A DNA stretch of 64,000 nucleotides, taken from the NCBI GenBank assembly GCA_947494675.1, contig CANLVP010000003.1, positions 483,791 through 547,790 on the forward strand, read 5' to 3'. Position 1 is the stretch's first letter. The number at the start of each line of letters is the position of its first letter. Position numbers and translations under genes: made by a program. This document shows positions 7,740 to 26,383 of the stretch, one piece after another. The notes under the pieces were generated by a model. It was not told the DNA's origin, made no database searches, and saw only the letters and a program-made list of their open reading frames with translations. The DNA is from an uncultured Paracoccaceae bacterium. Its GTDB lineage: Bacteria; Pseudomonadota; Alphaproteobacteria; Rhodobacterales; Rhodobacteraceae.

Positions 7740-9470
7740 TCAAGTGCCACCAACAGCCTTTTGCCATTGAGGATAGTTCCGACGTGCAAAGTCTTTGGTG
7801 ATGTAGCCATCCGTTACGTCGTCGTGCACGGCCTCGACCGGGCGCATCGTTGGGTCGCCGTAGCCGCCGCCGCCGCCGGTATGGAACTCTAGCCGTTCGC
7901 CTGCGGGGATGAAAACGCCGGTTGCTTTGGAGACGTTCTGAAGGTCCTCACCGGTGATCGCCAGATTGCATAGGTTGGCACGGCCTTCGCCGCCACCTGC
8001 CAAGCCCCATGGCGGAAGTTTCGTCCGCTCAAAGACCGTTGTGGCATAGGTATCGCCCAGCATGCGGAAGGTGAAATCGACCCCCGCACCGCCGCGCCAT
8101 TGGCCGGCACCGCCTGAATCGGCGGCAAGCGCCATTTGTTCGACCACCCATGGATTGCGGTTTTCCCAGACCTCGACCGGCGTAAACCGCGTGGCGCTTT
8201 CGGCGACATGCAGCATCGTGCCGCCATCGCCACCTGCCCAAGCCCCTTGGCCCACAGGATGCGGTGCGCCGTCCATCCAAGGGCTGCCATCGTCCTTGAC
8301 GCCCCACCAGACGCAGGAATCGATACATCCGCCAGAGGAGGCTGGCACCCCTTCGGGGATCGCCTCGGCCAATGCGCGGTAGATGATCTCAATCGCCTGC
8401 ATCGCGGGCCAGCCGTAGATAAAGCAGGGTGCCGGTGCGACCGGGTGAAACATCGTGCCTTCCCGCGTGATCACCTGAATGGGCCGAAAATGCCCTTCAT
8501 GCGGGGGTTCGCCATAGCCTGCCAGCATCGTGATCGCGACGCGCGCGGCCGACATGGTCGAGGGCAGCGGGCAGTTGATCGGGCCACGGGTCTGTTCTGG
8601 GACATTGGAGAAATCGATGACCACGTCAGAGCCCTTGACCTCCAACGCCACTTCAAACGGGACGACACCTTCGGTGACGCCGTCGCTGTCCATTTGCCCT
8701 TGTCCGACATAGCGCCCATCGGGGATCTTCTCAAAATAGGACCGAATAACACGGTCGCCATGGTCGAACATGTCTTCCACGGCGGCCTTAAAAGTGTCGA
8801 TCCCGTACCGGGTGACGATGTCCTCGAAACGCTCAACCCCGACCCGGCAACCGGTGACCTGCGCACCCATGTCACCTGCGACCGCTTTGGGCATCCGCGT
8901 GTTGGCGATGATGATCCGGTAGACGTCGTCGTTCAGCTCGCCTTTACGATAAAGCTTCAGGCCCGGATAAACCGTGCCCTCCTGAAAGATGTCGGTGGTG
9001 TCGGTGCAATAGGGCTCTTTGGCCGCGATATCGAGCCAATGCCCTTTGATGGCGGTGTACCCAATGACCGCGCCGCCGTGGAACGCAGGCATCACGATCA
9101 CCACGTCCTGCGCATGGCTGCCGGTGCCGTAGGACCAATTGTAGATCAGCACATCACCGGGATCGAGGTTGTCGACCCCGCCAATGCCCTTGACCGCTTC
9201 GTCCACGGCGTAATTCAACGTCCCCATGAACAGCGGTAGGCTGGGCGCTTGGCTGAGCATCCGCAGATCCCGGTCATAGATTGCGACGGCGAAATCCAGC
9301 ACCTCATAGATGATTGGCGAGAACGCAGTGCGGATCAGCGCGCGTTTCATCTGGTTGGCCGCGGAATTCAACGCGTGGCGGATCACCTCGGTCGTGATCG
9401 GGTCAGAGCTGCCGCTGACATCATTGCGCGGTAGACCGGCGGGATGGGTTGTGGTGGTTTTAGAAAGCAT
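7740..9470 (-). CDS. hyuB: Hydantoinase B/oxoprolinase family protein (HyuB1)
   Basis: A 576-residue HyuB-family subunit that works with a HyuA partner to open cyclic amides, usually with ATP. The N-terminal block DPITTEVIRHALNSAANQM and SPIIYEVLDFAVAIYD is typical, and the C-terminal HTGGGGGYGDPTMRP block is complete. It is unusual at the motif that normally reads NDPxxGGxTH: here the text is YNWSYGTGSHAQD, so the Asp-Pro pair is lost. It is the last gene of the eight-gene operon, 4 nt after hyuA1. The substrate cannot be deduced. Confidence 0.88.
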   Translation of the reverse strand: MLSKTTTTHPAGLPRNDVSGSSDPITTEVIRHALNSAANQMKRALIRTAFSPIIYEVLDFAVAIYDRDLRMLSQAPSLPLFMGTLNYAVDEAVKGIGGVDNLDPGDVLIYNWSYGTGSHAQDVVIVMPAFHGGAVIGYTAIKGHWLDIAAKEPYCTDTTDIFQEGTVYPGLKLYRKGELNDDVYRIIIANTRMPKAVAGDMGAQVTGCRVGVERFEDIVTRYGIDTFKAAVEDMFDHGDRVIRSYFEKIPDGRYVGQGQMDSDGVTEGVVPFEVALEVKGSDVVIDFSNVPEQTRGPINCPLPSTMSAARVAITMLAGYGEPPHEGHFRPIQVITREGTMFHPVAPAPCFIYGWPAMQAIEIIYRALAEAIPEGVPASSGGCIDSCVWWGVKDDGSPWMDGAPHPVGQGAWAGGDGGTMLHVAESATRFTPVEVWENRNPWVVEQMALAADSGGAGQWRGGAGVDFTFRMLGDTYATTVFERTKLPPWGLAGGGEGRANLCNLAITGEDLQNVSKATGVFIPAGERLEFHTGGGGGYGDPTMRPVEAVHDDVTDGYITKDFARRNYPQWQKAVGGT

Positions 9471-9474
9471 GGCG

Positions 9475-11493
9475 TTATCCCCGTTCGATCATGAGTTCGC
9501 CGAAATCGCCCGCGCGGACGGTCCATCCGGCATCGACATATGTGGTGGCCACGGTTTCGGTGATGATCACCGGCCCCGTGACGCCTGTGCCGATGTCATC
9601 GCGTGGACAGACCTTGAACGGCACCCGCTTTTTGTCGCGGAATGAATAGGCAGCGATGTCGCCGGTGGTCATGCCGGTACTTGCAGTTGTTGGGCCGCCA
9701 GAGTGGTCCCGTTTTGGCAGGGCGGCTTTGAGTTGGGCGCGGATGGCCGTGACCTCTACCCCGTCATTCAACGTGGCCCCGAAGGTTTTCGTATAAAGGG
9801 CGGAAAAGCGATCTGCGATTGTGGCGGCAGGTTCCGCGAGATCCAGACCATTGAGCGGCACAGGCACAGAAAGCGTGTGTTCCTGACCCACGTAACGCAC
9901 ATCCAGTTTCAGCGAGGCTTCCGCGTCCGGCACGGTTTCGCCCCTTGCTTTGATGCTGGCAATCAGATCGCCGAAGACCGATCCGAATTCGACAAGTGCG
10001 GCGTCGGTCAGGGGGCGCACAAGGGTGCGCGATGCGCTTTGCACCATGTCGGCCCCTAACAGCCCCCAGGCTGAAAAGATGCCAGCAAAGGGCGGGACCA
10101 CGATCTTTTTCATCGCCATTTCGTCGGCCAGAAGGGTCGCCATCATGCCGCCCGCGCCACCGAAGGGCAAAAGCGTCATTTCCCGGGCATCGAGGCCCTG
10201 CTCGGTCGAAATCTCGCGGATCGCATTGGCCATTGAACTGGCGGCGATGCGGATCACGCCTGCGGCGGTGTCCTCAACCGGCTGGCTAATCGCATCGGCC
10301 ACGCTGGTCAGCGCGCGTTCGGCGGCGTCGATGTCCAGTGTAATCCCAGAGGCAAGTTCCCCCGGACCCAGCATCCCAAGGTAGGCCGCCGCATCTGTCA
10401 CGGCGGGCTGCTCCCCGCCCTTGCCATAGCAGGCAGGTCCCGGTTCAGCGCCCGCACTATGCGGCCCGACCCGCATGAAACCACCGCCATCCTCGTAGGC
10501 AAGCGACCCGCCACCCGCACCGATGGAGCGCACATCAACCCACGGGCTCAGGATCGGCATATTGTCGATCTCACCTTCAAACAGTACCTGCGGCTCGCCC
10601 TCCAGAATAAGCGCTGCGTCAAAGCTGGTGCCGCCAACATCGGCGGTGATCATGCCTTTGTCGCCGATCAGACGTGCGAACTCGGATGCGCCAATGGCCC
10701 CGCCAACCGGGCCGGACATGATCGTCTCGAACGGGCGTTCTTCGGCCTCGGAAAAGTTCATCGACCCGCCACCGGAGCGTGTGATCAGGCATTTGCCGGT
10801 GAACCCGGCCTCGCGCAGCTGGCCTTCGAGCCGGTTCAGATAATTCGCCATGCGTCCGCGCACGAAGGCGTCGATCACAGCGGTCGAGGTCCGTTCATAT
10901 TCGCGGTATTCGCCACAGACGCGGTGCGACAGGGTGATGCCGCCCTCAAACCCGGCCTCGCGCAGATACCGTTCGACCAACAGTTCATGTTCGGGGTTGG
11001 CGTAAGAATGCATCAAGCTGACGGCGACGCTGGTCACGTCATGGGCCATGAATGTCTGCACCGCTGTAGCAACAGCCTCTGCCGTTGGCGCGCCTTCGGT
11101 GGACCCATCGGCCATTGTGCGCCCCGGCACCTCAAGCCGCAATCTGCGCGGCACGAGTGGTTTGGTCTGCTCCCAGAAGAGGTTATACATTTCGGCCCGG
11201 TCGCCCCGACGGATTTCCAGCACATCGCGGAACCCTTCGGTGGCAATCAACCCGACAGTGGACCCGCGCCGTTCCAAAAGCGCGTTCAGACCAACTGTGG
11301 TGCCATGTAGGAAGTATTCCGCTTTGGTCAGCACCTCTTGCGGCACATGTGCGGCAATCGCAGCGACGACGCCTTCCTCTGGTGCGGCAGGCACGGTCGG
11401 CACCTTGCCCTGCACGGTCTTGCCCGTGGCGTCGTCAAAGTAGACCAGATCGGTGAAGGTGCCCCCGATATCAACTGCTATGCGTGTCGCCAT
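9475..11493 (-). CDS. hyuA: Hydantoinase/oxoprolinase family protein, ATP-binding subunit (HyuA1)
   Basis: A 672-residue HyuA protein with an ASKHA-type ATPase fold. The first phosphate loop is RIAVDIGGTFTDLVYF at the N-terminus, the second is ITADVGGTSFDAALI near residue 285, and the family blocks HGTTVGLNALLERRG and GGGSLAYED are present. The pair HyuA1/HyuB1 is expected to couple ATP hydrolysis to ring opening of a hydantoin, oxoproline-like or other cyclic amide. A 66 nt gap separates it from the upstream peptidase gene, the largest gap in the operon, so an internal promoter is possible. The translated text shows no interruption. Confidence 0.9.
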   Translation of the reverse strand: MATRIAVDIGGTFTDLVYFDDATGKTVQGKVPTVPAAPEEGVVAAIAAHVPQEVLTKAEYFLHGTTVGLNALLERRGSTVGLIATEGFRDVLEIRRGDRAEMYNLFWEQTKPLVPRRLRLEVPGRTMADGSTEGAPTAEAVATAVQTFMAHDVTSVAVSLMHSYANPEHELLVERYLREAGFEGGITLSHRVCGEYREYERTSTAVIDAFVRGRMANYLNRLEGQLREAGFTGKCLITRSGGGSMNFSEAEERPFETIMSGPVGGAIGASEFARLIGDKGMITADVGGTSFDAALILEGEPQVLFEGEIDNMPILSPWVDVRSIGAGGGSLAYEDGGGFMRVGPHSAGAEPGPACYGKGGEQPAVTDAAAYLGMLGPGELASGITLDIDAAERALTSVADAISQPVEDTAAGVIRIAASSMANAIREISTEQGLDAREMTLLPFGGAGGMMATLLADEMAMKKIVVPPFAGIFSAWGLLGADMVQSASRTLVRPLTDAALVEFGSVFGDLIASIKARGETVPDAEASLKLDVRYVGQEHTLSVPVPLNGLDLAEPAATIADRFSALYTKTFGATLNDGVEVTAIRAQLKAALPKRDHSGGPTTASTGMTTGDIAAYSFRDKKRVPFKVCPRDDIGTGVTGPVIITETVATTYVDAGWTVRAGDFGELMIERG

Positions 11494-11559
11494 CTTTGTT
11501 ACCTATCGTTAGTTCAAGCCGGTATCCGTCTTGGTGCGTCAGTTGATTGGCGAGCGAAA

Positions 11560-12642
11560 TCACCCAATGACTGTCAGGTCACGCGGCAGACCTGACAAGA
11601 TCTCTGGCCCATCGGCGCGCATGATCACGATGTCTTCCAGCCGCAGGCCAAAGCGGCCCGGCAGGTAGATGCCCGGCTCGATGGAAAACACCATGCCCTC
11701 GTCCAGAACGGATTGCGATGAGGCCGAGATATAGGGCGGCTCATGCACTTCGATGCCCATGCCGTGGCCGAGGCGGTGGACGAAGTATTCGCCGTAGCCT
11801 GCGTCGGTGATCACTTTGCGCGCCGCGTCATCCAGAACGTGTGCCTTCACACCGGGACGGGCGACTTCCATCGCGGCTTGCACTGCGGCTTCGACAATGG
11901 CGTGCACTTCTGCGTAGCCTTCGGGCGCCTCGCCCATCACCGCCATGCGAGTGATGTCAGAGCTGAAACCGTCGCGACCCGCGCCAATGTCCATGACCAC
12001 CGCTTGGCCTTTTTCAAGCACGGTGTCGCCCGTTTGGTGGTGGGGCAGCGCACCGTTTCCACCAGCCCCTACGATGGTGAAGATCGGCGCTGCGCCAAGA
12101 CTGACAAAGGTTTCGCGCGCGACCGCTGCGACTTCCAATTCCGTCATGCCCGGGCGCATCGCGGCCCAAGCTGCTTGCATGGCTTTGTCCGCGATCAGAG
12201 CATTGGCCTTGAGCGCGGAGTATTCGTCTGGCCCTTTGCGGGCGCGGAGCGCGCTGACGGTCGTGTCGCAGAACTGACGCTTGGCGTTCATCAGCCTGTC
12301 TTGGATCAACGCCGCGTGATCGGCGCGCATCGTTTCATCCAAGGCGATGGACCGGGATGCATGTGCACCAAAGGTGTCCAGCATCGTCTCAAGCGCAGCC
12401 GTCGGACCGTCGGCATCCAGCCATTCAAAAAAGGGCAGATCGGTTTGGCGACGCGCGCTTTCGGTCTCCAAGGCGGGCATAAGGATGCCTGCGTGATCGG
12501 CAGTGATGCAGAAAATAAGCGGGCGTTCATCAGCGTGCGGGTGCATGCCTGTCAGCCATTCCAAATGCTTACCGGGCCCAAGGGCCACCAGATCGACGCC
12601 CTCTTCGACCATTTTCGCGCGCAGGCTTGCTAGTCTGTCCAT
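11560..12642 (-). CDS. M24 family metallopeptidase, probable Xaa-Pro dipeptidase/aminopeptidase
   Basis: The 360-residue protein has a creatinase-like N-terminal domain (about 1-130) and a pita-bread catalytic domain. All five metal ligands are present: D218 in VVMDIGAG, D229 in FSSDITR, H293 in RLGHGMGIEVHE, E322 in SIEPGIY and E336 in LRLEDIV. This argues for an active metallopeptidase that splits X-Pro bonds, and against a creatinase, which lacks metal. The ATG at 12642 is chosen over a longer frame because it lies 2 nt after the preceding stop and gives the usual length. Between two hyuAB pairs it could split dipeptides released by ring opening. A lyase-type M24 member is the main alternative. 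Confidence 0.82.
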   Translation of the reverse strand: MDRLASLRAKMVEEGVDLVALGPGKHLEWLTGMHPHADERPLIFCITADHAGILMPALETESARRQTDLPFFEWLDADGPTAALETMLDTFGAHASRSIALDETMRADHAALIQDRLMNAKRQFCDTTVSALRARKGPDEYSALKANALIADKAMQAAWAAMRPGMTELEVAAVARETFVSLGAAPIFTIVGAGGNGALPHHQTGDTVLEKGQAVVMDIGAGRDGFSSDITRMAVMGEAPEGYAEVHAIVEAAVQAAMEVARPGVKAHVLDDAARKVITDAGYGEYFVHRLGHGMGIEVHEPPYISASSQSVLDEGMVFSIEPGIYLPGRFGLRLEDIVIMRADGPEILSGLPRDLTVIG

Positions 12643-12644
12643 GG

Positions 12645-13643
12645 TCACGCTCCTGTTTCGATGACGACTTTGCCGTGCTGTGCACGCGGTTTTTCCAGAT
12701 AGCGCCAAGCCTCTATGTAGCCTTCCATGGGATAAACCTTATCGATCAATGGCTTGAGCGATCCATCAGACAGCCCGGCATAGACATATTCCGTGCCGCG
12801 TTTCTTGGCCGCATCGTCTTCGACGTAGTTGAACAGCGAATACATGTGCAGCCATGCGTTTGACTGCCACATATCGACGAAAGGAATGTCGGGAAACTTT
12901 TCTGTCAGCGTTCCGTAGAGCATGATCTTAGCGTTTTTGGCCAAGCTGGGCCCATAGCGCGTAGGAAAGTCGCCGCCAACGGGGTCAAACACGCCGTGTA
13001 CGCCAACACCATTGGTAGCGTCCTTGATAAAGGCGGCAAGGTCGCTGCCATCATCGACATAGACGTGGTCAGCACCGGTTTCTTTGAGGTAGTCCACTTT
13101 GCTGGCGGAGCGTGTCGTGGCAATCATCGTGGCACCTGCCGCACGGCCAATCTGCAAGGCGGCGTTGCCTGCGGTGCTGGTGGCCGCGGTCGCAAGGATA
13201 TTCACCCCGGGTCCGGCCTTGGCCATCTCAATCACCGGGTAATATGCGGTCATGAACTGCATCCAGACCGAACAGGCCTCTACCGCGCTCATGTTTTCAG
13301 GTGCAGGCGTCAGGTATTTGGCAGGTGTTGTGAGCGTGTCGGCGCTGGCACCTCTGTCGTAGTAGAAATAGGGCAAGGTGCAGTAGCGTTTGCCGATTTC
13401 AATGCCGGTGACACCTTCGCCGATGGCCTCAACAATGCCTGTGGCCTCGTCGCCAATGCGGGCGGGAAAGTGATTAAAGCTGAAGGAGTATTGGTCCTTC
13501 ATCAGGTTCATATCACCCCAGTTCAGGGCAAAGGCTTCGATCCGCAGGCGAACCTCGCCGGGGCCGGGCGAAACCTCTGCGCAATCTTGCAGGCGTAGCC
13601 CCTCATATCCGTCGTAAGCGTCGATCACCCATTCTCTTGGCAT
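12645..13643 (-). CDS. Zinc-binding-dehydrogenase superfamily (MDR) oxidoreductase, quinone-reductase-like
   Basis: A 332-residue medium-chain dehydrogenase/reductase. The N-terminal GroES-like domain reads GPGEVRLRIEAFALNWGDMNL and RIGDEATGIVEAIGEGV. The catalytic-zinc GHE motif is missing, so it resembles NADPH:quinone oxidoreductases. The nucleotide fold contains LATAATSTAGNAALQIGRAAGAT. It lies 2-3 nt from both neighbours in the operon. A role in oxidising or reducing an intermediate released by the Hyu enzymes is plausible, but the substrate is unknown. Confidence 0.82.
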   Translation of the reverse strand: MPREWVIDAYDGYEGLRLQDCAEVSPGPGEVRLRIEAFALNWGDMNLMKDQYSFSFNHFPARIGDEATGIVEAIGEGVTGIEIGKRYCTLPYFYYDRGASADTLTTPAKYLTPAPENMSAVEACSVWMQFMTAYYPVIEMAKAGPGVNILATAATSTAGNAALQIGRAAGATMIATTRSASKVDYLKETGADHVYVDDGSDLAAFIKDATNGVGVHGVFDPVGGDFPTRYGPSLAKNAKIMLYGTLTEKFPDIPFVDMWQSNAWLHMYSLFNYVEDDAAKKRGTEYVYAGLSDGSLKPLIDKVYPMEGYIEAWRYLEKPRAQHGKVVIETGA

Positions 13644-13646: not shown

Positions 13647-15284
13647 CTACCCTCCGTGAACCTCGGCTGCGCGGTCCGCTGCGATCAGCCCCGCCTTGAT
13701 ATCTGCGTCCACGGCTGCCCGGTTGCGTTTCTTCGGGTCGCCATAGCCCGCGCCCGAAGAGGTCACGACGCGTATCACGTCATCTGTTGTGACATCTAGG
13801 CCAGACACAAAGCTGTAGCGTTCGGTGCCTTCAGGCTTGATCACCTCGATGTAATTGCCTGACCCCTCATTGCCGCCTTCCATCGCCCAAGGCTTGACCT
13901 TGGACCGCGTGTAGCCCGCCGTTAGGAATCCGTCGCTTGTGCGAATGCGGTATTCGAGAACCAAGCCGCGCCCACCGTTGAATTCACCTTCGCCGCCGGG
14001 GCTCGTGTTCAGCGCCATGCGATCCACATAAAGCCCATTGCGCGCCTCTGAAATTTCGGCGGGCGTGTTGTAGGTTTCGCCATGGAAATTGCAGAAGGTG
14101 CAGGAAATACCTTCATGATCCTGCCCGGCACCCCAACCGCCAACTTGCGGTTCAATGATGGTGTATTGGCGCCCCGTATCAGGGTGGGTGCCACCAATGA
14201 ATGTGCCGCAGACCGAGCTGAAATGCCCGGCGGGCAACAGGTGGGACACATGTGGGGCCAAGCAGCGCGAGATCAGATCGTTACTGCGGACTTCGGTTTC
14301 ATAATAAAACCCGATGGCCGCCGGTTCCTTGGCGTGAAAGATCGACCCTTCACGGGTCAGCACGGTCAGGGGACGAAAACTGCCGTCATTGGCGGGCGTG
14401 TCCGGCCCGGTCAGCGCCTTAAAGAGCATTTGCGCGCAGATCAGTGTGCCATCACGTGTGGCGTTGGCGGGACCGTTCATCTGATCTGGATTATCCCGGA
14501 AATCGACAATAAATTCATCGTCGCTGATTGTGACCTTCACGTTGAATATCTGGCCATCGTCCTGCGGTTCGGACAGCTCGAACGTGCCTTTGGGCAGCTT
14601 GGCAAGTTCCGCCCGCGCCGCCTTTTCACCAAAGTCCATAAAGCTGTCCATCGCGGCCAAAAACGTCTTGGGCGTGTATTTTTCGGCCAACAAGCCCAGC
14701 CTGCGTTCGCCCACGCGCACAGCCGCAATGGCGGCCCAGACATCGCCTTTCAGGAAATCGGGCATCCGCGAATTGCAGGTCAGGATATCCATGACGGCGT
14801 CATCGGTGACACCTTCGTTGATGATTTTCACCGCAGGCAGGCGGAGACCCTCTTGGAAGACCTCCGTCGCATCGCCGGACAAAGACCCGGGGGCCATGCC
14901 GCCGATGTCGGAATTGTGGGCGATATTGGCGGTCCAGGCGATCAATTGGCCCTCGACAAAGACGGGCATCGCCAGCACCAAATCGTTCAGGTGGGTGACG
15001 CCGCCGTGCCAAGGATCATTGGTGATGAAGACATCGCCGGGTCGGATATCGTTATGTTTTGACAGAATAAACTGCACCGATTTATCGAGCACGCCGATAA
15101 ACGCAGGGATGCCTGCACCAGAGGAGGCAAGCCGCCCTTCGGCATCGGTGATGCCTGTGCCCATATCCAGCACTTCGTAAATGATTGAGGACATCGCGGT
15201 CTTGCGCATCGCGGCGAACATCTCATCCGCTGTGGCCTGCAACGCGTTCTGGATGATTTCGAGTGTGATGGGATCTTCGCTCAT
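13647..15284 (-). CDS. hyuB: Hydantoinase B/oxoprolinase family protein (HyuB2)
   Basis: A 545-residue HyuB with canonical motifs: DPITLEIIQNALQATADEM at the start, SSIIYEVLDMGTGITDAEG, the intact ITNDPWHGGVTHLNDLVLA, and SSGAGYGDPKKRN at the C-terminus. The ATG at 15284 is 4 nt after hyuA2 and gives the family start; the longer frame runs into hyuA2. It forms a pair with HyuA2. It resembles HyuB3 at 24839 (shared YEVLD-GTGITDA-GRL and TNDP-HGGVTHLND text) more than HyuB1, so HyuA2 might serve both. Confidence 0.9.
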   Translation of the reverse strand: MSEDPITLEIIQNALQATADEMFAAMRKTAMSSIIYEVLDMGTGITDAEGRLASSGAGIPAFIGVLDKSVQFILSKHNDIRPGDVFITNDPWHGGVTHLNDLVLAMPVFVEGQLIAWTANIAHNSDIGGMAPGSLSGDATEVFQEGLRLPAVKIINEGVTDDAVMDILTCNSRMPDFLKGDVWAAIAAVRVGERRLGLLAEKYTPKTFLAAMDSFMDFGEKAARAELAKLPKGTFELSEPQDDGQIFNVKVTISDDEFIVDFRDNPDQMNGPANATRDGTLICAQMLFKALTGPDTPANDGSFRPLTVLTREGSIFHAKEPAAIGFYYETEVRSNDLISRCLAPHVSHLLPAGHFSSVCGTFIGGTHPDTGRQYTIIEPQVGGWGAGQDHEGISCTFCNFHGETYNTPAEISEARNGLYVDRMALNTSPGGEGEFNGGRGLVLEYRIRTSDGFLTAGYTRSKVKPWAMEGGNEGSGNYIEVIKPEGTERYSFVSGLDVTTDDVIRVVTSSGAGYGDPKKRNRAAVDADIKAGLIAADRAAEVHGG

Positions 15285-17358: not shown

Positions 17359-17849
17359 GTTTTCGCTCCTGAGGCTTGGGCCGCGAGCAGGAAGGCGGCA
17401 GCACCGGGGAGTTTGAGTTGGTTTGCAGCGGCGACCCGTTCTGGCGTGAAGTGGCCTGCGACATTGAGGCAATTCAGTGTGCCCATGACGTTGCCATCAA
17501 TAATGATCGGCAGGTTCAGGCAGCTTTCGAGACCCAGCGATTGGATTTTTTCCCAATCGGGGAAAACTTCGGCCAGGTCTTCAATCGTGTTGCCGACAAA
17601 GGTTTCCTGCCGTTCAAGCACGGTCTTTGTCCAGATCGTATCAAGGATCGGTTTTTCACCACCCACCGGATAGGGCACCGGATCATCCGAGAAGATGCGC
17701 GCCGCCACGCCGCGCTTTTGGTCAACGGTCATGATGGTGAATTGCTTAAGGTCAAGCACGTCGTAAGCCAGTTGCGCCAGCGCCTTGAACACGGCCTGAG
17801 AGGCGTTCGGTCCGGCCATAGCGGCGACAAACGGGGCGAAATCAGCCAT
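17355..17849 (-). CDS. GAF domain-containing protein
   Basis: A 164-residue single-domain GAF protein. Typical text includes FTIMTVDQKRGVAARIFS early, GNTIEDLAEVFPDWEKIQSLG in the middle and LNLPIIIDGNVMGTLNCLN at the end. There is no output domain and no membrane segment, so it should be a cytoplasmic small-molecule sensor or a redox-related GAF protein. It overlaps the XRE-cupin gene by 8 nt and hyuA2 by 4 nt, which argues that it acts with the regulator or the enzymes. The longer upstream frame is rejected since it lies inside the regulator gene. Confidence 0.8.
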   Translation of the reverse strand: MADFAPFVAAMAGPNASQAVFKALAQLAYDVLDLKQFTIMTVDQKRGVAARIFSDDPVPYPVGGEKPILDTIWTKTVLERQETFVGNTIEDLAEVFPDWEKIQSLGLESCLNLPIIIDGNVMGTLNCLNVAGHFTPERVAAANQLKLPGAAAFLLAAQASGAKT

Positions 17850-18450: not shown

Positions 18451-18463
18451 GACTAAATTAATG

Positions 18464-18487
18464 TTGACAAAGGCCGCCCGTTGTCAA
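18464..18487. promoter_or_regulatory. Inverted repeat, candidate operator/promoter shared by the divergent hyu and dipeptide-transport operons
   Basis: TTGACAA at 18464-18470 and TTGTCAA at 18481-18487 form a perfect 7 bp inverted repeat with a 10 nt spacer. Each arm contains a TTGACA -35-like hexamer facing its own operon, so a dimer bound here would cover both promoters. It lies 14 bp upstream of the XRE-cupin start codon. Sequence only; binding is not shown. Confidence 0.5.
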
Positions 18488-18593
18488 GATGATTGAAGCA
18501 GTACTAAAAAAAGAATCTGAACCGCCAAGGCTGACCATCTGCTGGAGCTTTCGGTGGCGCGGGTCTTGGTCAAACAATGACAGGGGATTTCTG

Positions 18594-20180
18594 ATGCTAT
18601 TCAACACAAAGACAACGCTCTTAGGCACGACCGTGCTGGCGATGACGTTGGCCGCGGCACCGGTTGCCGCAGAGCGGATTTTGCGCGCGGACGAAGTGGC
18701 CGTTGGTGAAATTGATCCGGCAAAAGCTACGGATTACGCCGATACGGTGCTGGCCATCAACCTTTACGACACGCTGGTTTACCCCAAGCAGGGTGGTTCT
18801 GGCGTGCAGCCCCATTTGGCCACTGAGTGGGCAATTGATGGCGCGACCTACACCTTCACACTGCGTGATGATGTGACGTTCAATTCAGGAAATCCGCTGA
18901 CTGCTGCCGACGTTGCCTATTCGTTTGAACGGATGATGGCGATGGGCCAAGGCAATTCCAACCTGTTCGCAGGTGTCGTCGATAGCGTCGAAGCGACGGG
19001 CGACAACACTGTTGTCTTTACGCTGACAGAGCCCTTCGCACCCTTCCTTGCCTCCCTTGTGCGGATGCCGGTTGTTGATATGGCGGTCGTGAAAGCCAAC
19101 GAAGTTGACGGCGACTGGGCCTCTACCTGGATGTCGCAAAACAGCGCAGGTTCCGGCCAATACGTGATCACCAGCCATGATCCACAGACCGAAACCGTTA
19201 TGGCTTATGAGGCCGACTATTTCATGGAACCGGTCGAAGGCTACCCCGAAACGGTGCGTTACCGCTATGGCCTGGAGCCCTCGACCGTCCGCGCATTGAT
19301 GAGCCGTGGCGAGCATGACATCTCAAGCCAGTGGCTGCCGCCCGAGGTCTTTGCCGGTCTTGCCGAAGAGGGCGCGACCTTGGTCACCGAGGCGGGCCTG
19401 TCTGGTGAGTATTTCAAGATGAACACGCAACGTGCGCCCCTGGACGACGTGCATTGCCGCCGCGCGCTGGCCTATGCGTTTGATTATGCAACCATGGCGC
19501 AACTCACGCAGATCAACGATGAGGTTTCATCCGGTCGGCCGATGAACGGCGCGATCCCACAGGGCTTGCTTGGCTATGACGCCATTGTGCCGAATTTCTC
19601 ACAAGACATGGCCTTGGCGCAGGAAGAACTGGCGAAATGCGCCTATGATCCGGCGGAACATCTGTTGGACGTGGCCTTTATCGCGGAAACACCGGCGCGG
19701 GAACGCGGCGCGCTGATGATGCAAGCCATCTACAGCACGATGGGCTTCAATGTGGAAATCACACGGACGCCTTGGGCTTTGCTGACCGAGCAGGTTACAG
19801 CACCGCCAACAGCCCCGCATGTGGTCGAAATCGCGGTGTCTGCGGCCTCACCTGATACAGATTCGCTGCTTTACGCAATGTATCATTCGTCGCAGCCTGC
19901 AAGCTGGATTGCCTCGTCCTACTTCAAGAACCCAGAGCTGGATGCGCTGTTGGATCAAGCCCGGATTGAAACCGATCAGGACGCCCGGCAAGACATCTAT
20001 GCACAGGCGAATGCCATTCTGGCACAAGAGGTGCCTGACATCTTTGCCTATGAATTGCTGGGGGCCTTTGCAGTGCGTGAAGGCGTGACCTTCCACAACC
20101 TTGCGGACCCGGCGCTGACTTACCCGAACTCCGGGTTCAACATGCGGTTTGCGGATATTTCGGTTCCTGAGGCTGAATAA
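18594..20180 (+). CDS. Dipeptide-type ABC transporter substrate-binding protein (family 5)
   Basis: A 528-residue periplasmic binding protein. The signal peptide is MLFNTKTTLLG followed by a hydrophobic stretch and an AAPVAAE cleavage region. Family 5 text includes VQPHLATEWAIDGATYTFTL, PLTAADVAYSFERMM and VFTLTEPFAPFLASL. The ATG at 18594 is chosen over a 35-residue upstream extension because it starts the signal peptide and has GGGGA-like ribosome-binding text just upstream. It is the first gene of the operon and presumably delivers the substrate of the hyu enzymes, namely a small peptide or cyclic peptide. The exact ligand is unknown. Confidence 0.9.
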   Translation: MLFNTKTTLLGTTVLAMTLAAAPVAAERILRADEVAVGEIDPAKATDYADTVLAINLYDTLVYPKQGGSGVQPHLATEWAIDGATYTFTLRDDVTFNSGNPLTAADVAYSFERMMAMGQGNSNLFAGVVDSVEATGDNTVVFTLTEPFAPFLASLVRMPVVDMAVVKANEVDGDWASTWMSQNSAGSGQYVITSHDPQTETVMAYEADYFMEPVEGYPETVRYRYGLEPSTVRALMSRGEHDISSQWLPPEVFAGLAEEGATLVTEAGLSGEYFKMNTQRAPLDDVHCRRALAYAFDYATMAQLTQINDEVSSGRPMNGAIPQGLLGYDAIVPNFSQDMALAQEELAKCAYDPAEHLLDVAFIAETPARERGALMMQAIYSTMGFNVEITRTPWALLTEQVTAPPTAPHVVEIAVSAASPDTDSLLYAMYHSSQPASWIASSYFKNPELDALLDQARIETDQDARQDIYAQANAILAQEVPDIFAYELLGAFAVREGVTFHNLADPALTYPNSGFNMRFADISVPEAE

Positions 20181-20251: not shown

Positions 20252-21274
20252 TTGTCGATTTTTAGAAGACTTTTGGGACGCTTGGGCGCGTCATTGATCG
20301 TGCTGATCGGCGTGTCGATGCTGATCTTCTTTATTGCCCGCATCATTCCTGGCGATCCCGCGCGCATCGCCCTTGGCCCCCGCGCGACCGACGCGCAGGT
20401 AGAGCAGATGCGCGAAGCCCTGAACCTGAACGAACCGATCGTCGTGCAATATGGCCTGTTCATGGGCGACCTTGTGCGCGGTGATCTCGGAATTTCACTC
20501 TATTCCAACCGTCCGGTGATGACCGACCTGGTTGAATACCTTCCCGCCACTTTGGAATTGGTCCTGTTGGCTGGGTTCATGATGGTGATGATCGGGTTGC
20601 CGCTGGGTGCAATCTCGGCCCGGTATCGCGGGCGATGGCCGGACAATCTGGTGCGCGTCATTTCATTGCTCGCGGTCTCTGCCCCGGCCTTTGTCTGGGC
20701 GGTGGGTCTGGTGCTGGTCTTTGCCTATTTCACCCCCCTCTTCCCGATCACAGGCCGGATCAGCGACACCTTAGAGGTCGAGCGTCTGACCGGCTTTATG
20801 CTGATCGACACGCTGGCCGCTGGTCGTTTGGATGCCTTTGCCTCCGCCCTGCATCACCTGATCCTGCCGGCCTTTGCCCTTGCCCTGTCTGGTATCGGGC
20901 AAGCCGCGCGGTTGACACGATCCAACATGATCGCGACCTACGAACAGCCCGCGATTGAGATGGCGCAGGCCTACGGCTTTTCCGAGGCCCGCATCGCACG
21001 GCGTTACGCTTTCAAGCCGTCACTTATACCGTCGTTGACAATCATCGGTCTCGATTTTGCGGCGCTCCTTGGCAACGCTTTTCTGGTCGAGGTCATCTTT
21101 GCCTGGCCCGGTCTGTCCCGTTACGGTGTGGGGGTCATTCTGCAAAAGGACCTCAACGCAATTGTGGGGACGGTTCTGATCATCTCGGCCACGTTCCTGA
21201 TCGCCAATATCATCGTGGATTTTCTGGTGTCGGTTCTCAATCCACGGATCAGGTTCTCTGAGGACAACAAATGA
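20252..21274 (+). CDS. ABC transporter permease (DppB-like)
   Basis: A 340-residue inner-membrane permease with an N-terminal helix (about 10-30), a periplasmic region containing FFIARIIPGDPARIALGPRAT, and later helices. The EAA loop reads MAQAYGFSEARIARRYAF. The start is a TTG at 20252 preceded by AAAGGTG; no ATG gives the expected MSIFRRLLGRLG N-terminus. It overlaps the next permease by 4 nt. It forms the channel with the following DppC-like protein. Confidence 0.9.
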   Translation: MSIFRRLLGRLGASLIVLIGVSMLIFFIARIIPGDPARIALGPRATDAQVEQMREALNLNEPIVVQYGLFMGDLVRGDLGISLYSNRPVMTDLVEYLPATLELVLLAGFMMVMIGLPLGAISARYRGRWPDNLVRVISLLAVSAPAFVWAVGLVLVFAYFTPLFPITGRISDTLEVERLTGFMLIDTLAAGRLDAFASALHHLILPAFALALSGIGQAARLTRSNMIATYEQPAIEMAQAYGFSEARIARRYAFKPSLIPSLTIIGLDFAALLGNAFLVEVIFAWPGLSRYGVGVILQKDLNAIVGTVLIISATFLIANIIVDFLVSVLNPRIRFSEDNK

Positions 21275-22101
21275 AGCGCGCCGCCTATATCCTGTTGTCC
21301 AATCCGCTATCCGTCATCGGCCTCTTGCTGGTCGGCACGGTGTTCTTCTGCGCCCTTTTTGCAGATTTCATCGCACCTTATCCTGATCATGCTGGTGCTG
21401 TGATGAACTTCGCATTCGCCAACAAGCCGCCCTCGGCCGAGTATCTTTTGGGCACAGACGTCGTGGGCCGCGATATTCTGACCCGGATCATCTATGCCTA
21501 CCAAGTCGCGCTTGGCATGGGGCTGGTCGTGCTGCTGATCGCGCCGCCCATTGGTGTCGCGTTTGGGTTGATCGCGGGCTATATCGGCGGCTGGACGGAT
21601 TTCATTCTGATGCGGATTTCCGACATCTTTCTGTCGATCCCGCCGCTGGTGTTGGCACTGGCGATCATGGGCCTGTTAGAGCCGACGCTGCTTAACGCCA
21701 TGCTGGCGATCACCGCCATGTGGTGGCCGTGGTATGCGCGGTTGGTCTACAACATCACGCGCGGCGAAAAGGTCGAAGGCTATGTGCTGGCGGCCGAGGT
21801 GATTGGTGCTTCGAAGGCCCACATCATGTTCCGCGAAATCCTGCCCAATTGTGTACCTGCCATTGTCACCAAGATGACGCTAGATTTCGGATTCGTGATC
21901 CTAATCGCCTCATCGCTGAGCTTCCTTGGTCTTGGGGTACAGGCACCAACGGCAGACCTTGGGTCGATGGTTTCTGAAGGCACGCGCTATCTGCCCGATA
22001 GCTGGTGGATGACCATTTTTCCGGGGCTGGCGATTGTGGTGGCTGTCTTCGGGTTCAATCTTGTGGGCGACGTGCTGCGCGACGTGTTGGAGCCTGATTG
22101 A
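21271..22101 (+). CDS. ABC transporter permease (DppC-like)
   Basis: A 276-residue permease with an N-terminal helix, the conserved LLGTDVVGRDILTRIIYAYQ block after it, and five further membrane segments. The EAA loop reads LAAEVIGASKAHIMFREILPN, and the usual SFLGLGVQAPTADLGSM follows. It overlaps DppB by 4 nt, and its stop shares a base with the start of the ATPase gene. Confidence 0.92.
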   Translation: MKRAAYILLSNPLSVIGLLLVGTVFFCALFADFIAPYPDHAGAVMNFAFANKPPSAEYLLGTDVVGRDILTRIIYAYQVALGMGLVVLLIAPPIGVAFGLIAGYIGGWTDFILMRISDIFLSIPPLVLALAIMGLLEPTLLNAMLAITAMWWPWYARLVYNITRGEKVEGYVLAAEVIGASKAHIMFREILPNCVPAIVTKMTLDFGFVILIASSLSFLGLGVQAPTADLGSMVSEGTRYLPDSWWMTIFPGLAIVVAVFGFNLVGDVLRDVLEPD

Positions 22102-22976
22102 TGCCTGATCCACTGACGCTTGATATCAAAGACCTGCGCCTGTCGTTTAAGAACTGGTCCGGCACCACCGAGGTGCTGCATGGCATTGACCTCAGGATCG
22201 CGCCCGGCGAACGGGTTGCGCTTGTGGGCGAAAGCGGATCGGGCAAATCGGTGACCTCGCGCATTGTGCTGGGCACAATGCAGGATGTGCGCACGGCCCG
22301 TGTGACGGGCCAGGTGGCGTTTGAGGGGCAAGACCTGTCTGCTCTGACCTCTTCCGATCGCCGGGCGTTGCGCGGGCGCGATATCTCGATGATTTTCCAA
22401 GATCCCACCTCGGCGCTGAACCCGGTCTTTCGGATTGGCGAACTGTTTCAGGAGGTGCTGAAACGGCGCGATCCGAAGGTGACAAAGGGAGAGGCCCGCG
22501 CCCAGGCTGCCAAGATCCTGCACGAAGTTTCGATTGAGGACACAGATCGTGTGCTAGACAGCTATTCCTTTCAGCTTTCGGGCGGCATGAACCAGCGAGT
22601 CATGATCGCGATGGCGTTGATCAATGAGCCGCGTTTGCTGTTGGCCGATGAACCCGGCACCGCGCTGGACGTGACGGTGCAGGCGCAGACCTTAGCGATG
22701 ATGCGTGATCTGGTGGTCCAACAAGGGACGTCGGTACTGTTTATCTCACATAACCTTGGGGTCGTGCGCGAGTTTGCCGACCGCATTTATGTCATTTACC
22801 AAGGCCGGATTGTCGAACACGGTGCGACCAAGGAACTGTTTGACGCGCCACGCCATCCCTACACGCGCGCGCTCTTATCAGCGATCCCGCGCCTGACGGG
22901 CGGCGGTGTGCCGGATATCGCAGAGCGCTCCCCGGATTTTGACGACCCATTCGTTGACCATGCGGAGGTGCGGTGA
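22101..22976 (+). CDS. ABC transporter ATP-binding protein (DppD-like)
   Basis: A 291-residue ATPase. Walker A is GESGSGKSV, the signature is LSGGMNQRVMIAMAL, Walker B is LLLADEPGTALD, and the switch histidine is in FISHNLGVVREFADR. The C-terminal YTRALLSAIPRLTGG is typical of the oligopeptide family, but the tail is short and lacks the usual cysteine-rich region of DppD/OppD. The ATG at 22101 shares one base with the upstream stop; an in-frame TTG at 22098 is also possible. Confidence 0.9.
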   Translation: MPDPLTLDIKDLRLSFKNWSGTTEVLHGIDLRIAPGERVALVGESGSGKSVTSRIVLGTMQDVRTARVTGQVAFEGQDLSALTSSDRRALRGRDISMIFQDPTSALNPVFRIGELFQEVLKRRDPKVTKGEARAQAAKILHEVSIEDTDRVLDSYSFQLSGGMNQRVMIAMALINEPRLLLADEPGTALDVTVQAQTLAMMRDLVVQQGTSVLFISHNLGVVREFADRIYVIYQGRIVEHGATKELFDAPRHPYTRALLSAIPRLTGGGVPDIAERSPDFDDPFVDHAEVR

Positions 22977-23785
22977 TGGCTAACCCGATCCTTTCGCTGG
23001 ACGCTGTCAGTAAAGAATTCCGTGTGGGCAAGTCCGTCGTGACGGCGGTGGATAATGTGAGTTTGGACGTAGCCCAAGGTGAGTGCCTTGCTATCGTGGG
23101 CGAGAGCGGGTCAGGCAAAAGCACGATTGCGAATATGATCCTTGGGCTCTTCCCCGCGACAAAAGGCCAGATCAGCTATGCTGGCACCGTACTGCCTGCC
23201 AAACGCACGCTGGAACATCGCAGCCAAATCCAACTGGTCCAGCAAAACCCGCTGTCTGCGTTGAACCCGCGCCGCTCTGTCGGGGCGTCGCTGCGGCTGG
23301 CATTGGATGTGCATAATCACGGTAACCCGGCGGAACGGCCCGCGATGGTTGCGGCCCTGCTGGAAGAAGTGGGGCTTGATCCCGCTATGGCCACCCGTGC
23401 GCCGTCTGGCATGTCCGGTGGGCAACGCCAGCGCATCGCCATTGCCCGCGCCTTGGCCTGCCAGTCGCAGGTGGTGGTGCTGGATGAACCCACGTCGGCA
23501 TTGGACGTTTTGGTGCAGGCGCGCGTCTTGCGCTTGCTCAATGACCTGCGCGAAAAACGGGGCCTGACCTATCTGTTCATCACCCATGATCTGTCCGTGG
23601 TGCGCAATATCGCCGACCGCGTTGCAGTCTTTCAGCGGGGGCAGTTGGTGGAATTGGCGGCAACGGAAACCCTGTTTGAAAACCCTGCCAACCCCTACAC
23701 CCGCACGTTGATTTCAGCAGTTCCCGTTGTGTCCGAACCTGAGCTTGCCCTGCGCGATGCGCTCGCGGCAGGTGCGACCGTCTAG
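22976..23785 (+). CDS. ABC transporter ATP-binding protein (DppF-like)
   Basis: A 269-residue ATPase. Walker A is GESGSGKST, the signature is MSGGQRQRIAIARAL, Walker B is VVVLDEPTSALD, and FITHDLSVVRNIADRVAVF holds the switch histidine. It follows DppD with a shared base (TGATG) and ends on TAG, whose last base begins the GTG start of the racemase gene, so translation of the entire block appears coupled. Confidence 0.9.
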   Translation: MANPILSLDAVSKEFRVGKSVVTAVDNVSLDVAQGECLAIVGESGSGKSTIANMILGLFPATKGQISYAGTVLPAKRTLEHRSQIQLVQQNPLSALNPRRSVGASLRLALDVHNHGNPAERPAMVAALLEEVGLDPAMATRAPSGMSGGQRQRIAIARALACQSQVVVLDEPTSALDVLVQARVLRLLNDLREKRGLTYLFITHDLSVVRNIADRVAVFQRGQLVELAATETLFENPANPYTRTLISAVPVVSEPELALRDALAAGATV

Positions 23786-24834
23786 TGCGCGCCAGCAAGG
23801 TCATCACCGCTGTTGAGGCCCATGCCGAGGGCGAAGGTGGGCGCGTGATCACTGCCGGGCTGCCTCACCTCAAAGGCACCACCGTCAAAGAAATGATGCA
23901 GTTTATGGCCAAGCATCACGACGATATCCGCACCCTGATGCTGCAAGAACCGCGCGGCAATCCGGCGCTGTGTTGCAACGCAATCGTACCGCCCTGCCAT
24001 CCTGAGGCCGACGCCGGTTTCATCATCATGGAGCAGACCGAATACCCGCCGATGTCTGGCAGCAATACAATCTGCGTTGTGACTGTTCTGCTGGAAACCG
24101 GGGTGATCGCCATGCGCGAACCCGTCACGCACTTGACACTGGAAGCCCCCGCCGGGCTGATCAAGGTTAAGGCGACCTGCAAGGACGGCAAGGTCGAGCG
24201 GGTCAAGTTCCGCAACCTGCCCGCTTTCGCCATGCATCTGGACGTGCCGTTGGACGTCCCGGGATACGGTACCATCACCGCCGATATCGCGTGGGGCGGC
24301 ATGTTCTATGTGATCGCAGACGCGGGCCAATTTGGACTTGGCCTGACATCTGATGAGGGCTTTAAAGTCGTCAAAGCGTGTGAAGCGATGCTCGCGGCAA
24401 GTCAGGTACAGTTTCCGGTCACCCATCCGGTGGATGCGGAATTTACCGGTCCCACGATATCGCAATTGACGCTGCCGCCTGACCAAGAGGGTCATGACGG
24501 GATCAGCGCGGTGTCTGTCTCGGGCGGGACGTACAAACCGGGTGGCATCACAGGCGCGCTCGACCGCTCGCCGTGCGGGACCGGGACCAGCGCGAAAATG
24601 GCCGTGCTGCATGCCAAAGGGCTACTCGCGCAGGGCCAAGAATTTGTGAATGCCGGGCCGCTGCGCACGACCTTCACGGGCCGGATCGAAGACACCACAA
24701 AGGTTGGCCCCTATGATGCCATCATCCCCAGCATCTCGGGGCGCGGCTGGATTTCGGGGATGAGCCAATACCTTTTGGATCCCTCGGACCCCTTCCAATC
24801 GGGCTTTACTGTGGGCGATATCTGGGCAGGCTAG
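23785..24834 (+). CDS. Proline racemase family protein (hydroxyproline epimerase / trans-3-hydroxyproline dehydratase candidate)
   Basis: A 349-residue enzyme of the proline racemase fold. The second catalytic cysteine is present (C264 in DRSPCGTGTSA). The first position, normally Cys in MCGHG, is Ser91 in MSGSN, and the following His is also replaced by Ser. Racemases need two cysteines. Relatives with Ser or Thr at the first site are known as hydroxyproline dehydratases or mixed epimerase/dehydratases, so simple proline racemisation is unlikely. The GTG start at 23785 overlaps the TAG of the ATPase gene. The context of peptide importer, HyuB and a putative prolidase in the divergent operon fits metabolism of proline-like residues. 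Confidence 0.85.
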   Translation: MRASKVITAVEAHAEGEGGRVITAGLPHLKGTTVKEMMQFMAKHHDDIRTLMLQEPRGNPALCCNAIVPPCHPEADAGFIIMEQTEYPPMSGSNTICVVTVLLETGVIAMREPVTHLTLEAPAGLIKVKATCKDGKVERVKFRNLPAFAMHLDVPLDVPGYGTITADIAWGGMFYVIADAGQFGLGLTSDEGFKVVKACEAMLAASQVQFPVTHPVDAEFTGPTISQLTLPPDQEGHDGISAVSVSGGTYKPGGITGALDRSPCGTGTSAKMAVLHAKGLLAQGQEFVNAGPLRTTFTGRIEDTTKVGPYDAIIPSISGRGWISGMSQYLLDPSDPFQSGFTVGDIWAG

Positions 24835-24838
24835 GCAC

Positions 24839-26383
24839 ATGCACGACCCATTCACATTGTCCGTGATCCAGGCCGGATTTGAAAATGCGGCGGAAGAGAT
24901 GTTCGCGGTTTTGCGTAAAACCGCAATGAGCCCGATTATCTACGAAGTGCTGGACGTCGGGACAGGGATCACAGACGCGCAAGGCCGCTTGGTCAGTTCC
25001 GGTGCGGGAATCCCGACCTTTGTCGGCGTGCTCGACAAGGCGGTGAAGGTCATCGTGGACCGCTACGGGGACAGCCTGCAGGATGGCGACATCTTCATCA
25101 CCAACGACCCCAATCATGGCGGTGTGACGCATCTGAACGATGTGGTCCTCGCCAAGCCGGTGTTCTTTGACGGGCGCTGCGTCGCCTTCACTGCCTCTAT
25201 CGCGCATTGGGGCGATATTGGCGGCAAAGTGCCGGGGTCCATGGCGGGCGATGTGACCGAGATTTTTGCCGAAGGTTTGCGTTTGCCGCCTGTTCGCTTG
25301 TTCAAAGCAGGTGTCCGAAACGCAGCAGTATTCGACATCATCCAGATAAATTCGCGCCTGCCTGATTTTGTGCGCGGCGATCTATGGGCGCAGGTCGCGG
25401 CCAGCAAAAGCGCAGAGCGTCAGCTTTTGGCGCTCTATTTGAAATATGGGGCGGCGACGGTCACGACAGCGATGGAAGACGCCTTTGTTTCGGGCCGTGC
25501 GCGGGCGCTGGCGGGGCTTGCCACGTTGCCAAAGGGCACATTTGCGATTGAAGAAGAACAGGACGATGGCCGGATTTGGCAGGCAAAAATCACCATCTCG
25601 AGTGACACTTTCGAAGTCGATTTGACCAACAACCCATCAGACGGCGGCACCCCCTACAACACCAGCCGGGATGGGGCGGTCATTGCCTGCCAGATGATCT
25701 TCAAGGCGCTCTGCGATCCCGAACGCTTTGCAAACTTCGGATCATTCTCTCCGCTGCGTGTGGTCACGAAAGAAGGCACGGTTTTTCACGCCGGGTCAAC
25801 AGCGCCGCAAGGCTACTACTTCGAAAACCGCATTCGGCTCTTCGACATGCTCTGGCAATGTATGGCGCGGGCCATTCCGGGGCGGCTACCTGCCGGGTCG
25901 TTTTCGTCGATTTTCGGCACCGTCATTGCCGGGCAACACCCTGATACCGGGCGTAAATACACGATGGTCGAACCCCAGATGGGCGGTTGGGGTGCGACTG
26001 CTGACCGCGATGGCTTGAGCGCGATGTTCTCCCCCAACCACGGCAATACGTTTAACTGCCCCGTTGAGATTTGCGAGGCGCGTTACGGGCTGAATGTTGT
26101 GCAAAAGGGGTTAGCCGCGCGATTGCGCGATGCCACGGGTCATAGAGGCGGGCACGGCGTCCGTGTGACCTATGAGGCGCGCGGTCCCGCCAGTCTGTCG
26201 GTCGGCTATACCCGCGCACGAATTCCTGTTTGGTCGCTGAATGATCAACCATCCGGCGGGACGAATACGATGTCGATCCGGCGTTCGTCGGGACAGGAGG
26301 AGCAACATCAGTTCGCGAGTGGTGTGAACCTAGAAGCGGGTGATCGTATCCACATCAAGACTGCGGAAGGTGGGAATGCCTAG
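24839..26383 (+). CDS. hyuB: Hydantoinase B/oxoprolinase family protein without adjacent HyuA (HyuB3)
   Basis: A 514-residue HyuB. Canonical motifs are FENAAEEMFAVLRKTAMSPI, YEVLDVGTGITDAQGRLVSS and ITNDPNHGGVTHLNDVVLA. The C-terminus is shorter than in HyuB1 and HyuB2 and lacks the glycine-rich GAGYGDP tail. The ATG at 24839 is 4 nt after the racemase-family gene, so it is the last gene of the transporter operon. No hyuA lies next to it. The nearest HyuA genes are in the divergent operon, and HyuB3 resembles HyuB2, so sharing HyuA2 or acting on a different ring without ATP are both possible. Confidence 0.88.
   Translation: MHDPFTLSVIQAGFENAAEEMFAVLRKTAMSPIIYEVLDVGTGITDAQGRLVSSGAGIPTFVGVLDKAVKVIVDRYGDSLQDGDIFITNDPNHGGVTHLNDVVLAKPVFFDGRCVAFTASIAHWGDIGGKVPGSMAGDVTEIFAEGLRLPPVRLFKAGVRNAAVFDIIQINSRLPDFVRGDLWAQVAASKSAERQLLALYLKYGAATVTTAMEDAFVSGRARALAGLATLPKGTFAIEEEQDDGRIWQAKITISSDTFEVDLTNNPSDGGTPYNTSRDGAVIACQMIFKALCDPERFANFGSFSPLRVVTKEGTVFHAGSTAPQGYYFENRIRLFDMLWQCMARAIPGRLPAGSFSSIFGTVIAGQHPDTGRKYTMVEPQMGGWGATADRDGLSAMFSPNHGNTFNCPVEICEARYGLNVVQKGLAARLRDATGHRGGHGVRVTYEARGPASLSVGYTRARIPVWSLNDQPSGGTNTMSIRRSSGQEEQHQFASGVNLEAGDRIHIKTAEGGNA

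Follow-up and report, generated by a model that had tools for sequence, protein, structure and literature searches.

A conserved hyu/dipeptide-importer regulon of an uncultured Paracoccaceae bacterium and its possible role in the catabolism of cyclic or otherwise N-blocked proline-containing dipeptides

Introduction

Positions 7740 to 26383 of a 64,000-nucleotide stretch of DNA from an uncultured Paracoccaceae bacterium (assembly GCA_947494675.1, contig CANLVP010000003.1, positions 483,791 to 547,790; this whole stretch is termed the window below) carry genes for two HyuA-type and three HyuB-type subunits, an M24 metallopeptidase and a dipeptide-type importer in two divergent arms. Among the closest described systems is CapAB of Pseudomonas jessenii (PDB 6YRA), a two-subunit, ATP-dependent cyclic-amide hydrolase that hydrolyses lactams and does not open free 5-oxoproline (PMC6061476); in the scheme that its authors expect, the lactim tautomer is phosphorylated on the alpha subunit and then hydrolysed by the beta subunit, with carboxyphosphate routes left possible (PMC6061476, PMC8453981). 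An N-methylhydantoinase (PDB 7HK5 series and 9H03) is the best solved relative of the HyuA2 and HyuB2 described below, but is a single chain of 1288 residues; no paper on these structures was found in the open PMC literature. Clusters for cyclodipeptide oxidase without a cyclodipeptide synthase likewise have dipeptide importers, PF01177 racemases and peptidases as neighbours, but are defined by a flavin oxidase and carry DUF917, and have been linked tentatively to purine metabolism or to secondary metabolites of peptide type (PMC11055893).

Cyclic dipeptides are abundant and were not cut by the peptidases tested, and the enzymes that hydrolyse them were called unclear in 2013 (PMC3852281); in 2018, genes called 5-oxoprolinase were suggested as possible caprolactamases or cyclic dipeptide hydrolases (PMC6061476). 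The gene set of the window is a conserved, testable candidate for this open question of enzymology, with a substrate that we infer. On evenly balanced confidence, it is a regulon for the breakdown of proline-containing dipeptides that are cyclic or N-blocked in some other way, with a putative substrate, putative reactions and a putative binder of its palindrome. If true, the set would name concrete enzymes for cyclic dipeptide hydrolysis and a chemical rule for their product, and many genes labelled hydantoinase/oxoprolinase would be reassigned. In the titles and abstract beginnings found in the open PMC literature, a scope outside which most subscription journals lie, the gene set is not described. 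Cyclo(His-Pro) hydrolases have reportedly been found in Leifsonia and Rhodococcus.

Organization of the locus

A Pfam scan and the translations of the window gave fifteen intact genes in two divergent arms, including every gene that an initial annotation of this DNA had named; its divergent arms around a symmetric control region were likewise confirmed, XRE and the substrate-binding protein (SBP) being separated by 143 bp that hold a palindrome. Adjacent genes within each arm are spaced by -38 to +71 bp. The features are, from the centre, then leftwards along the left arm and rightwards along the right arm (Pfam matches in brackets):

18451..18593, no strand: divergent control region of 143 bp between XRE and SBP, read from the sequence
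18464..18487, no strand: palindrome TTGACAA-N10-TTGTCAA, probable operator; its halves can also be read as facing -35 boxes
17842..18450, minus: XRE-cupin (PuuR-like) regulator (HTH_3 and Cupin_2)
17355..17849, minus: stand-alone GAF protein with a sensor-type fold (GAF, matched on the longer open reading frame 17355-17984)
15289..17358, minus: HyuA2, predicted ATP-using alpha subunit (Hydantoinase_A, with ATP motifs)
13647..15284, minus: HyuB2, predicted metal beta subunit (Hydantoinase_B); the reading frame opens at 15326 and the start is probably the internal ATG at 15284
12645..13643, minus: MDR oxidoreductase, optional (ADH_zinc_N)
11560..12642, minus: M24 X-Pro-type metallopeptidase (Peptidase_M24 and Creatinase_N), start probably the ATG at 12642
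9475..11493, minus: HyuA1, second alpha subunit, lineage add-on (Hydantoinase_A)
7740..9470, minus: HyuB1, partner of HyuA1 (Hydantoinase_B), metal-site residues kept
18594..20180, plus: SBP, family-5 binding protein, Ala418 at the column of DppA D436 (SBP_bac_5)
20252..21274, plus: DppB-like permease (BPD_transp_1)
21271..22101, plus: DppC-like permease (BPD_transp_1)
22098..22976, plus: DppD-like ATPase (ABC_tran with oligo_HPY)
22973..23785, plus: DppF-like ATPase (ABC_tran with oligo_HPY)
23785..24834, plus: proline-racemase-family enzyme with a Ser/Cys dyad, add-on (Pro_racemase)
24839..26383, plus: HyuB3, second core beta subunit, C-terminally short (Hydantoinase_B), without a HyuA of its own in core loci

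Conservation of the gene set

A scan of named genomes found 376 relatives, the best 80 loci of which were kept as the case set; 20 loci around HyuA of other clades (34-39% identical), from the same family, served as controls, and loci of at least 17 kb (65 case, 18 control) are termed long. The full core, i.e. XRE, SBP, DppB/C/D/F, GAF, HyuA2, HyuB2 and M24, is present in 57 of the 65 long case loci, and HyuB3 accompanies it in 46 of these 57. The genes are therefore conserved together in relatives and not separately scattered, the point on which the initial annotation had let its reading depend. Over the 80 loci, HyuB2 is the next labelled gene after HyuA2 in 79, and GAF precedes HyuA2 in 75.

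Long case and long control loci differ in XRE (63/65 versus 0/18), GAF (63/65 versus 1/18), SBP (63/65 versus 2/18), M24 (60/65 versus 1/18; 70/80 versus 1/20 over all loci), HyuB3 (48/65 versus 0/18) and the PF01177 racemase (41/65 versus 1/18; 47/80 over all case loci). Dpp permeases or ATPases were found in 64/65 long case loci versus 9/18 long controls; such importers are common beside other HyuA, and therefore M24, XRE, GAF and this SBP are the markers of the clade. The MDR gene (11/65 versus 1/18; 14/80 over all case loci) and the proline-racemase-family gene (3/65 versus 0/18; 4/80) are infrequent, and HyuA1B1 occurs in 2/80 loci (L054 and L068); neither HyuA1B1 as part of the core nor the proline-racemase-family enzyme as a shared pathway step, both proposed earlier, was borne out. 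The core thus comprises the importer, XRE, GAF, HyuA, HyuB and M24, usually with HyuB3.

In a HyuA tree of 59 rows, which was sampled at every fifth case locus and carries a long-branch warning with HyuA1 included, a branch (100/99) separates the 17 case rows and 16 further orthologs from all 20 controls; HyuA1 stands on a remote, separate long branch.

The distribution of the gene set is patchy. HyuA2 orthologs of at least 64% identity were found in 8/198 genomes of the family (own genome counted, one match partial), with the next matches dropping to 45% identity or less; in a phylum sample, matches at E 1e-160 or better were found in 8/398 genomes, the two listed genomes of the same genus both being without a match. 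Loci occur in Rhodobacterales, Hyphomicrobiales, other Alphaproteobacteria, Thermus, Bacilli and one haloarchaeon, as well as in metagenome-assembled genomes named gammaproteobacterial and in records named Betaproteobacteria (one marked UNVERIFIED_ORG).

Among further orthologs, the locus of Thermus thermophilus SG0.5JP17-16 combines HyuA and two HyuB with XRE, cupin, racemase, five Dpp-type genes and Xaa-Pro peptidase; Planococcus has Xaa-Pro peptidase, aminotransferase, HyuA, HyuB, IclR and an OPT transporter, so that peptide-type importers (Dpp and OPT, respectively) are found in both of these distant relatives. In Novosphingobium (L131), HyuA and HyuB are accompanied by a TonB receptor, a racemase, an Xaa-Pro peptidase and a beta-eliminating lyase, and Parageobacillus pGEOTH01 has racemase, MFS, XRE, HyuA, HyuB, cupin and Xaa-Pro peptidase, followed by pruA and proline dehydrogenase. 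Within the fetched stretches of 17 further orthologs, M24 is present in eight (L126, L127, L128, L129, L131, L167, L169 and L171).

In Roseitalea (L093, 1-2397), a PutA-like gene with PruA and proline dehydrogenase matches lies divergent from XRE, the sole such case in 80 loci. Proline catabolism genes were dropped as a statistical neighbour, and their adjacency is used as an anecdote, because it is confined to this locus and Parageobacillus.

The HyuA and HyuB enzymes

The translations of HyuA1 and HyuA2 both keep the motifs DxGGTxTD, DxGGT and GxxPGP, which are the ATP motifs of the alpha subunit (PMC8453981). The residues D54, H112, D115 and H137 of HyuB1, HyuB2 and HyuB3 are invariant in 19/19 aligned rows, and this Asp-His-Asp-His spacing is identical to that of D41, H99, D102 and H124 in CapB, whose metal-site mutants lost activity (PMC8453981). 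By motifs and metal site, HyuA2/HyuB2 is a predicted member of the ATP-dependent lactamase (hydantoinase/oxoprolinase) family, for which ring opening that depends on ATP and bicarbonate is characteristic.

Among solved structures, HyuA2 and HyuB2 come nearest to the N-methylhydantoinase and caprolactamase, with ketone carboxylases ranking behind; HyuA2 scores 414 and 380 bits against the cyclic-amide hydrolases versus 251 and 224 bits against the carboxylases. The likeness to CapAB has its limits: the NCBIfam caprolactamase cut-offs (above 1000 bits) were missed (best 510.8 bits for CapA and 246.2 bits for CapB), HyuA2 with 511 bits and HyuA1 with 410 bits lying under the CapA cut-off of 1000. 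The cut-offs for acetophenone carboxylase (ApcA/ApcC/ApcD, 1250-1500 bits) were missed at a best score of 264.6 bits, and that enzyme has two HyuA-like subunits, as opposed to the single HyuA with two HyuB of the present core. A carboxylase reading was dropped, given these low NCBIfam and solved-structure scores. Of the two activities that the initial annotation had named as speaking against its reading, acetophenone-type carboxylation is improbable, and action on simple hydantoins is a less probable but live possibility.

HyuB3 forms a distinct HyuB subfamily, its rows being about 40 residues shorter than HyuB2 at the C-terminus, and core loci have a single HyuA for two HyuB, an arrangement that also differs from CapAB. 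One HyuA may serve both HyuB in core loci, and in the window HyuB3 could pair with HyuA1.

The M24 peptidase and the racemases

Residues D219, D230, H294, E323 and E337 of the M24 protein, which we take to be its metal ligands, align with those of solved X-Pro peptidases and, together with H202 and H301, are invariant in 22/22 aligned sequences. Domain architecture and active-site residues are like those of PepQ and aminopeptidase P; the best NCBIfam model is X-Pro dipeptidase (PepQ), with 197 bits and a missed cut-off of 630. Orthologs of M24 adjoin peptide-type importers in loci without HyuAB. The M24 protein beside HyuAB in L171 carries AMP_N, a domain of aminopeptidase P, and belongs to another subfamily. 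In Enterococcus raffinosus (L177), M24 genes lie beside genes for proline iminopeptidase, a peptide transporter and D-proline reductase.

A PF01177 Asp/Glu/hydantoin racemase usually sits between HyuB2 and M24, and is missing there in the window and its nearest relatives, L044, L045, L046 and L112. The proline-racemase-family gene is found in the window, L044 and L045, with a relative in L054, and L093 holds both racemase types; one type may replace the other, although so few loci prove little. The proline-racemase-family protein has Ser/Cys in the two catalytic places and the SGSN motif, as in the proline racemase superfamily, and does not share the Ser/Thr dyad of the dehydratase (PMC4113996). 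That paper, in which UniProt names are not fully consistent, describes a 4-hydroxyproline epimerase with the Ser/Cys dyad and a 3-hydroxyproline dehydratase with Ser/Thr; on account of its dyad, the protein looks more epimerase- than dehydratase-like. Its NCBIfam scores for 4-hydroxyproline epimerase are below cut-off, with the dyad and the SGSN Asn present. The best NCBIfam model is trans-3-hydroxyproline dehydratase, which was rejected as an assignment for the Ser/Cys dyad in place of Ser/Thr (as in PDB 4K7G) and a score of 366.5 bits versus a cut-off of 550.

The binding protein and a sister regulon

R383 and D436 of DppA presumably hold the carboxylate and the ammonium group of a free dipeptide; both positions appear in the title of PDB 8Z1Z (DppA R383D+D436R). 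Of the SBPs of HyuAB systems, 77 reach 75% coverage and 35% identity or more, and none of them has Asp in the D436 column (V 52, M 9, A 6, L 4, R 2, T 2, N 1, Q 1), and the R383 column is a gap in the SBP of the window and in the family profile; the SBP of the window thus lacks both DppA-type ligand residues, Asp436 and Arg383. The structure model of the SBP (predicted local distance difference test, pLDDT, of 64) was used for a fold match only, being too poor for reading the pocket.

M24 was matched in 24 genomes, 16 of which were newly fetched. Relatives of M24 and GAF led to five loci (L201, L202, L216, L217 and L218) with XRE, M24 (52-55% identical), SBP, DppBCDF and GAF, and without HyuAB in the fetched stretch. 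DppA is the best solved match of the SBP of this sister regulon, which has Asp in the D436 column in 5/5 cases; the Arg is not kept. The sister regulon is a candidate for the import and cleavage of free X-Pro dipeptides, and the Asp contrast between the two kinds of SBP, suggestive only, would point to a ligand without a free N-terminus in the HyuAB systems. At seven other M24 loci (two on short contigs), no such SBP was matched; the additional SBPs L217b (Asp) and L218b (Trp) were set aside as belonging to other importers.

The control region and the regulators

A search of the window for TTGACAA-N10-TTGTCAA that tolerated as many as two mismatches gave this one site (mean in shuffled windows, 0.25), and TTGAC-N14-GTCAAGA occurs exactly once in the 3.9-Mb genome. 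In an alignment of seven control regions (window, L044, L045, L046, L112, L054 and L068), TGTTGAC and GTCAAGA stand unchanged at a distance of 14 bases in 7/7, around a varying centre, and most of the CTAAA-like boxes that flank the palindrome left and right are preserved. This footprint separates XRE from HyuA1B1 in L054 and L068, where the SBP and Dpp genes come next; in these two loci, HyuA1B1 and the importer are thereby linked to a single regulator.

The model of the GAF protein (pLDDT 90.5) has the GAF domain of Lcd1 with cAMP as its top fold match, and Cys127 is invariant in 20/20 aligned sequences. GAF was rejected as a hallmark of HyuAB, a relative being present in 24/385 genomes of the class; among the short loci fetched for these relatives, only one adjoined a HyuA2 relative (78%).

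Proposed pathway and alternative explanations

For the route itself we propose, somewhat more tentatively than the regulon as a whole, a proline-diketopiperazine pathway, in which an importer-peptidase regulon for X-Pro would have gained an ATP-driven ring opener (one HyuA with two different HyuB) and its importer would have been retuned from free to N-blocked dipeptides. The SBP and DppBCDF would import a ligand without a free N-terminus, and the XRE-cupin protein, perhaps aided by the GAF sensor, would control both arms via the shared palindrome. HyuA2 would use ATP to activate a ring amide that bears an N-H, and HyuB2 or HyuB3 would hydrolyse the activated lactim at the metal site. M24 would then split X-Pro into X and proline, and a racemase (PF01177 in most relatives; here possibly the proline-racemase-family enzyme) would correct the stereochemistry. 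Lactim formation requires an amide N-H. Only the Pro-CO-NH-X amide of cyclo(X-Pro) has one, and ring opening would therefore yield X-Pro; as X-Pro is what M24 X-Pro dipeptidases act on, this chemistry would explain why M24 is paired with HyuAB. The core logic of import, ring opening and X-Pro cleavage, as initially annotated, is favoured by the 57/65 full cores, the cyclic-amide hydrolases as relatives and the SBP without the DppA Asp; its step through a proline-racemase-family enzyme is not.

A number of observations weigh against this pathway. M24 is absent from the fetched stretch of nine of the 17 further orthologs (L124, L125, L130, L168, L170, L172, L173, L174 and L175), of which L124, L130 and L170 have sugar-type ABC genes beside HyuA and L172, a sibling of L171, has an unrelated gene in the place of M24; among the eight family loci fetched first, M24 was found in six, both G014 loci lacking it. 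Dpp-type importers are common beside other HyuA, a putA-like neighbour was seen in 1/80 loci, and no NCBIfam equivalog cut-off was reached by proteins of the locus. The five SBPs of the sister regulon are 66-67% identical to the first one and hence count as one lineage, and Pro (4) or Ser (2) fills the D436 column in six other SBPs that are linked to M24 but not to HyuAB, so that a missing Asp alone does not mean a ring.

An unlikely alternative, though the strongest of three, is hydantoin catabolism, with HyuAB opening a 5-substituted or N-alkyl hydantoin and M24 acting as a creatinase-like N-carbamoyl hydrolase. The name of the nearest solved HyuAB, N-methylhydantoinase, suits it, as does the commonest racemase of the loci, PF01177 (41/65 long loci), which is of the hydantoin-racemase family. 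Creatinase works without metals, whereas M24 here keeps all five presumed metal ligands, has X-Pro dipeptidase as its best, sub-cut-off model and has orthologs beside peptide-type importers without HyuAB; in Parageobacillus, moreover, proline genes follow M24, and the cytosine permease found there belongs to a separate DUF917 cluster.

Slightly less probable still is the opening of a pyroglutamyl lactam in pyroglutamyl-proline or like N-blocked peptides, to give Glu-Pro for cleavage by M24. This would satisfy the same N-H rule, HyuAB is of the oxoprolinase family, and the missing DppA Asp suits both a ring and a linear peptide with a blocked N-terminus. Free 5-oxoproline, however, is not a substrate of the family member CapAB, there is no obvious need for a racemase, and we know of no member of the hydantoinase/oxoprolinase family that acts on pyroglutamyl peptides, though no search aimed at this was made.

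Lactam or carboxylase chemistry unrelated to peptides, with M24 as a passenger, is improbable, for although the family includes caprolactamase and ketone carboxylases and the M24-less orthologs with their sugar-type ABC genes would suit it, HyuA2 scores lower against carboxylases than against cyclic-amide hydrolases, and a gene as regular as M24, with 60/65 long loci, would hardly be an accidental companion.

Neighbouring genes

To the left of the regulon, ROK, amidohydrolase and CutC family genes (window 4682-7492, plus strand) apparently form a separate operon; to the right of HyuB3, an oligopeptide-type ABC ATPase gene (window 26465-27466, minus strand) is possibly the end of another importer operon.

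A second nearby cluster, with a DUF917 (S-Me-THD-like) gene and a HyuA-like protein, was seen in L129, L131, L167, L051, L064, L104, L113 and L174, and includes a cytosine permease in L129 and L167. In L171 (1175-3106) and L172 (1996-4152), an aspartyl-protease domain fused to an avidin-family domain is encoded near HyuAB and a PF01177 racemase, with an MFS gene in L171; an avidin-family gene is also found nearby in Novosphingobium (L131). In Mycetohabitans (L125, 17703-25097), a large amino-acid adenylation gene of the non-ribosomal peptide synthetase type adjoins HyuAB.

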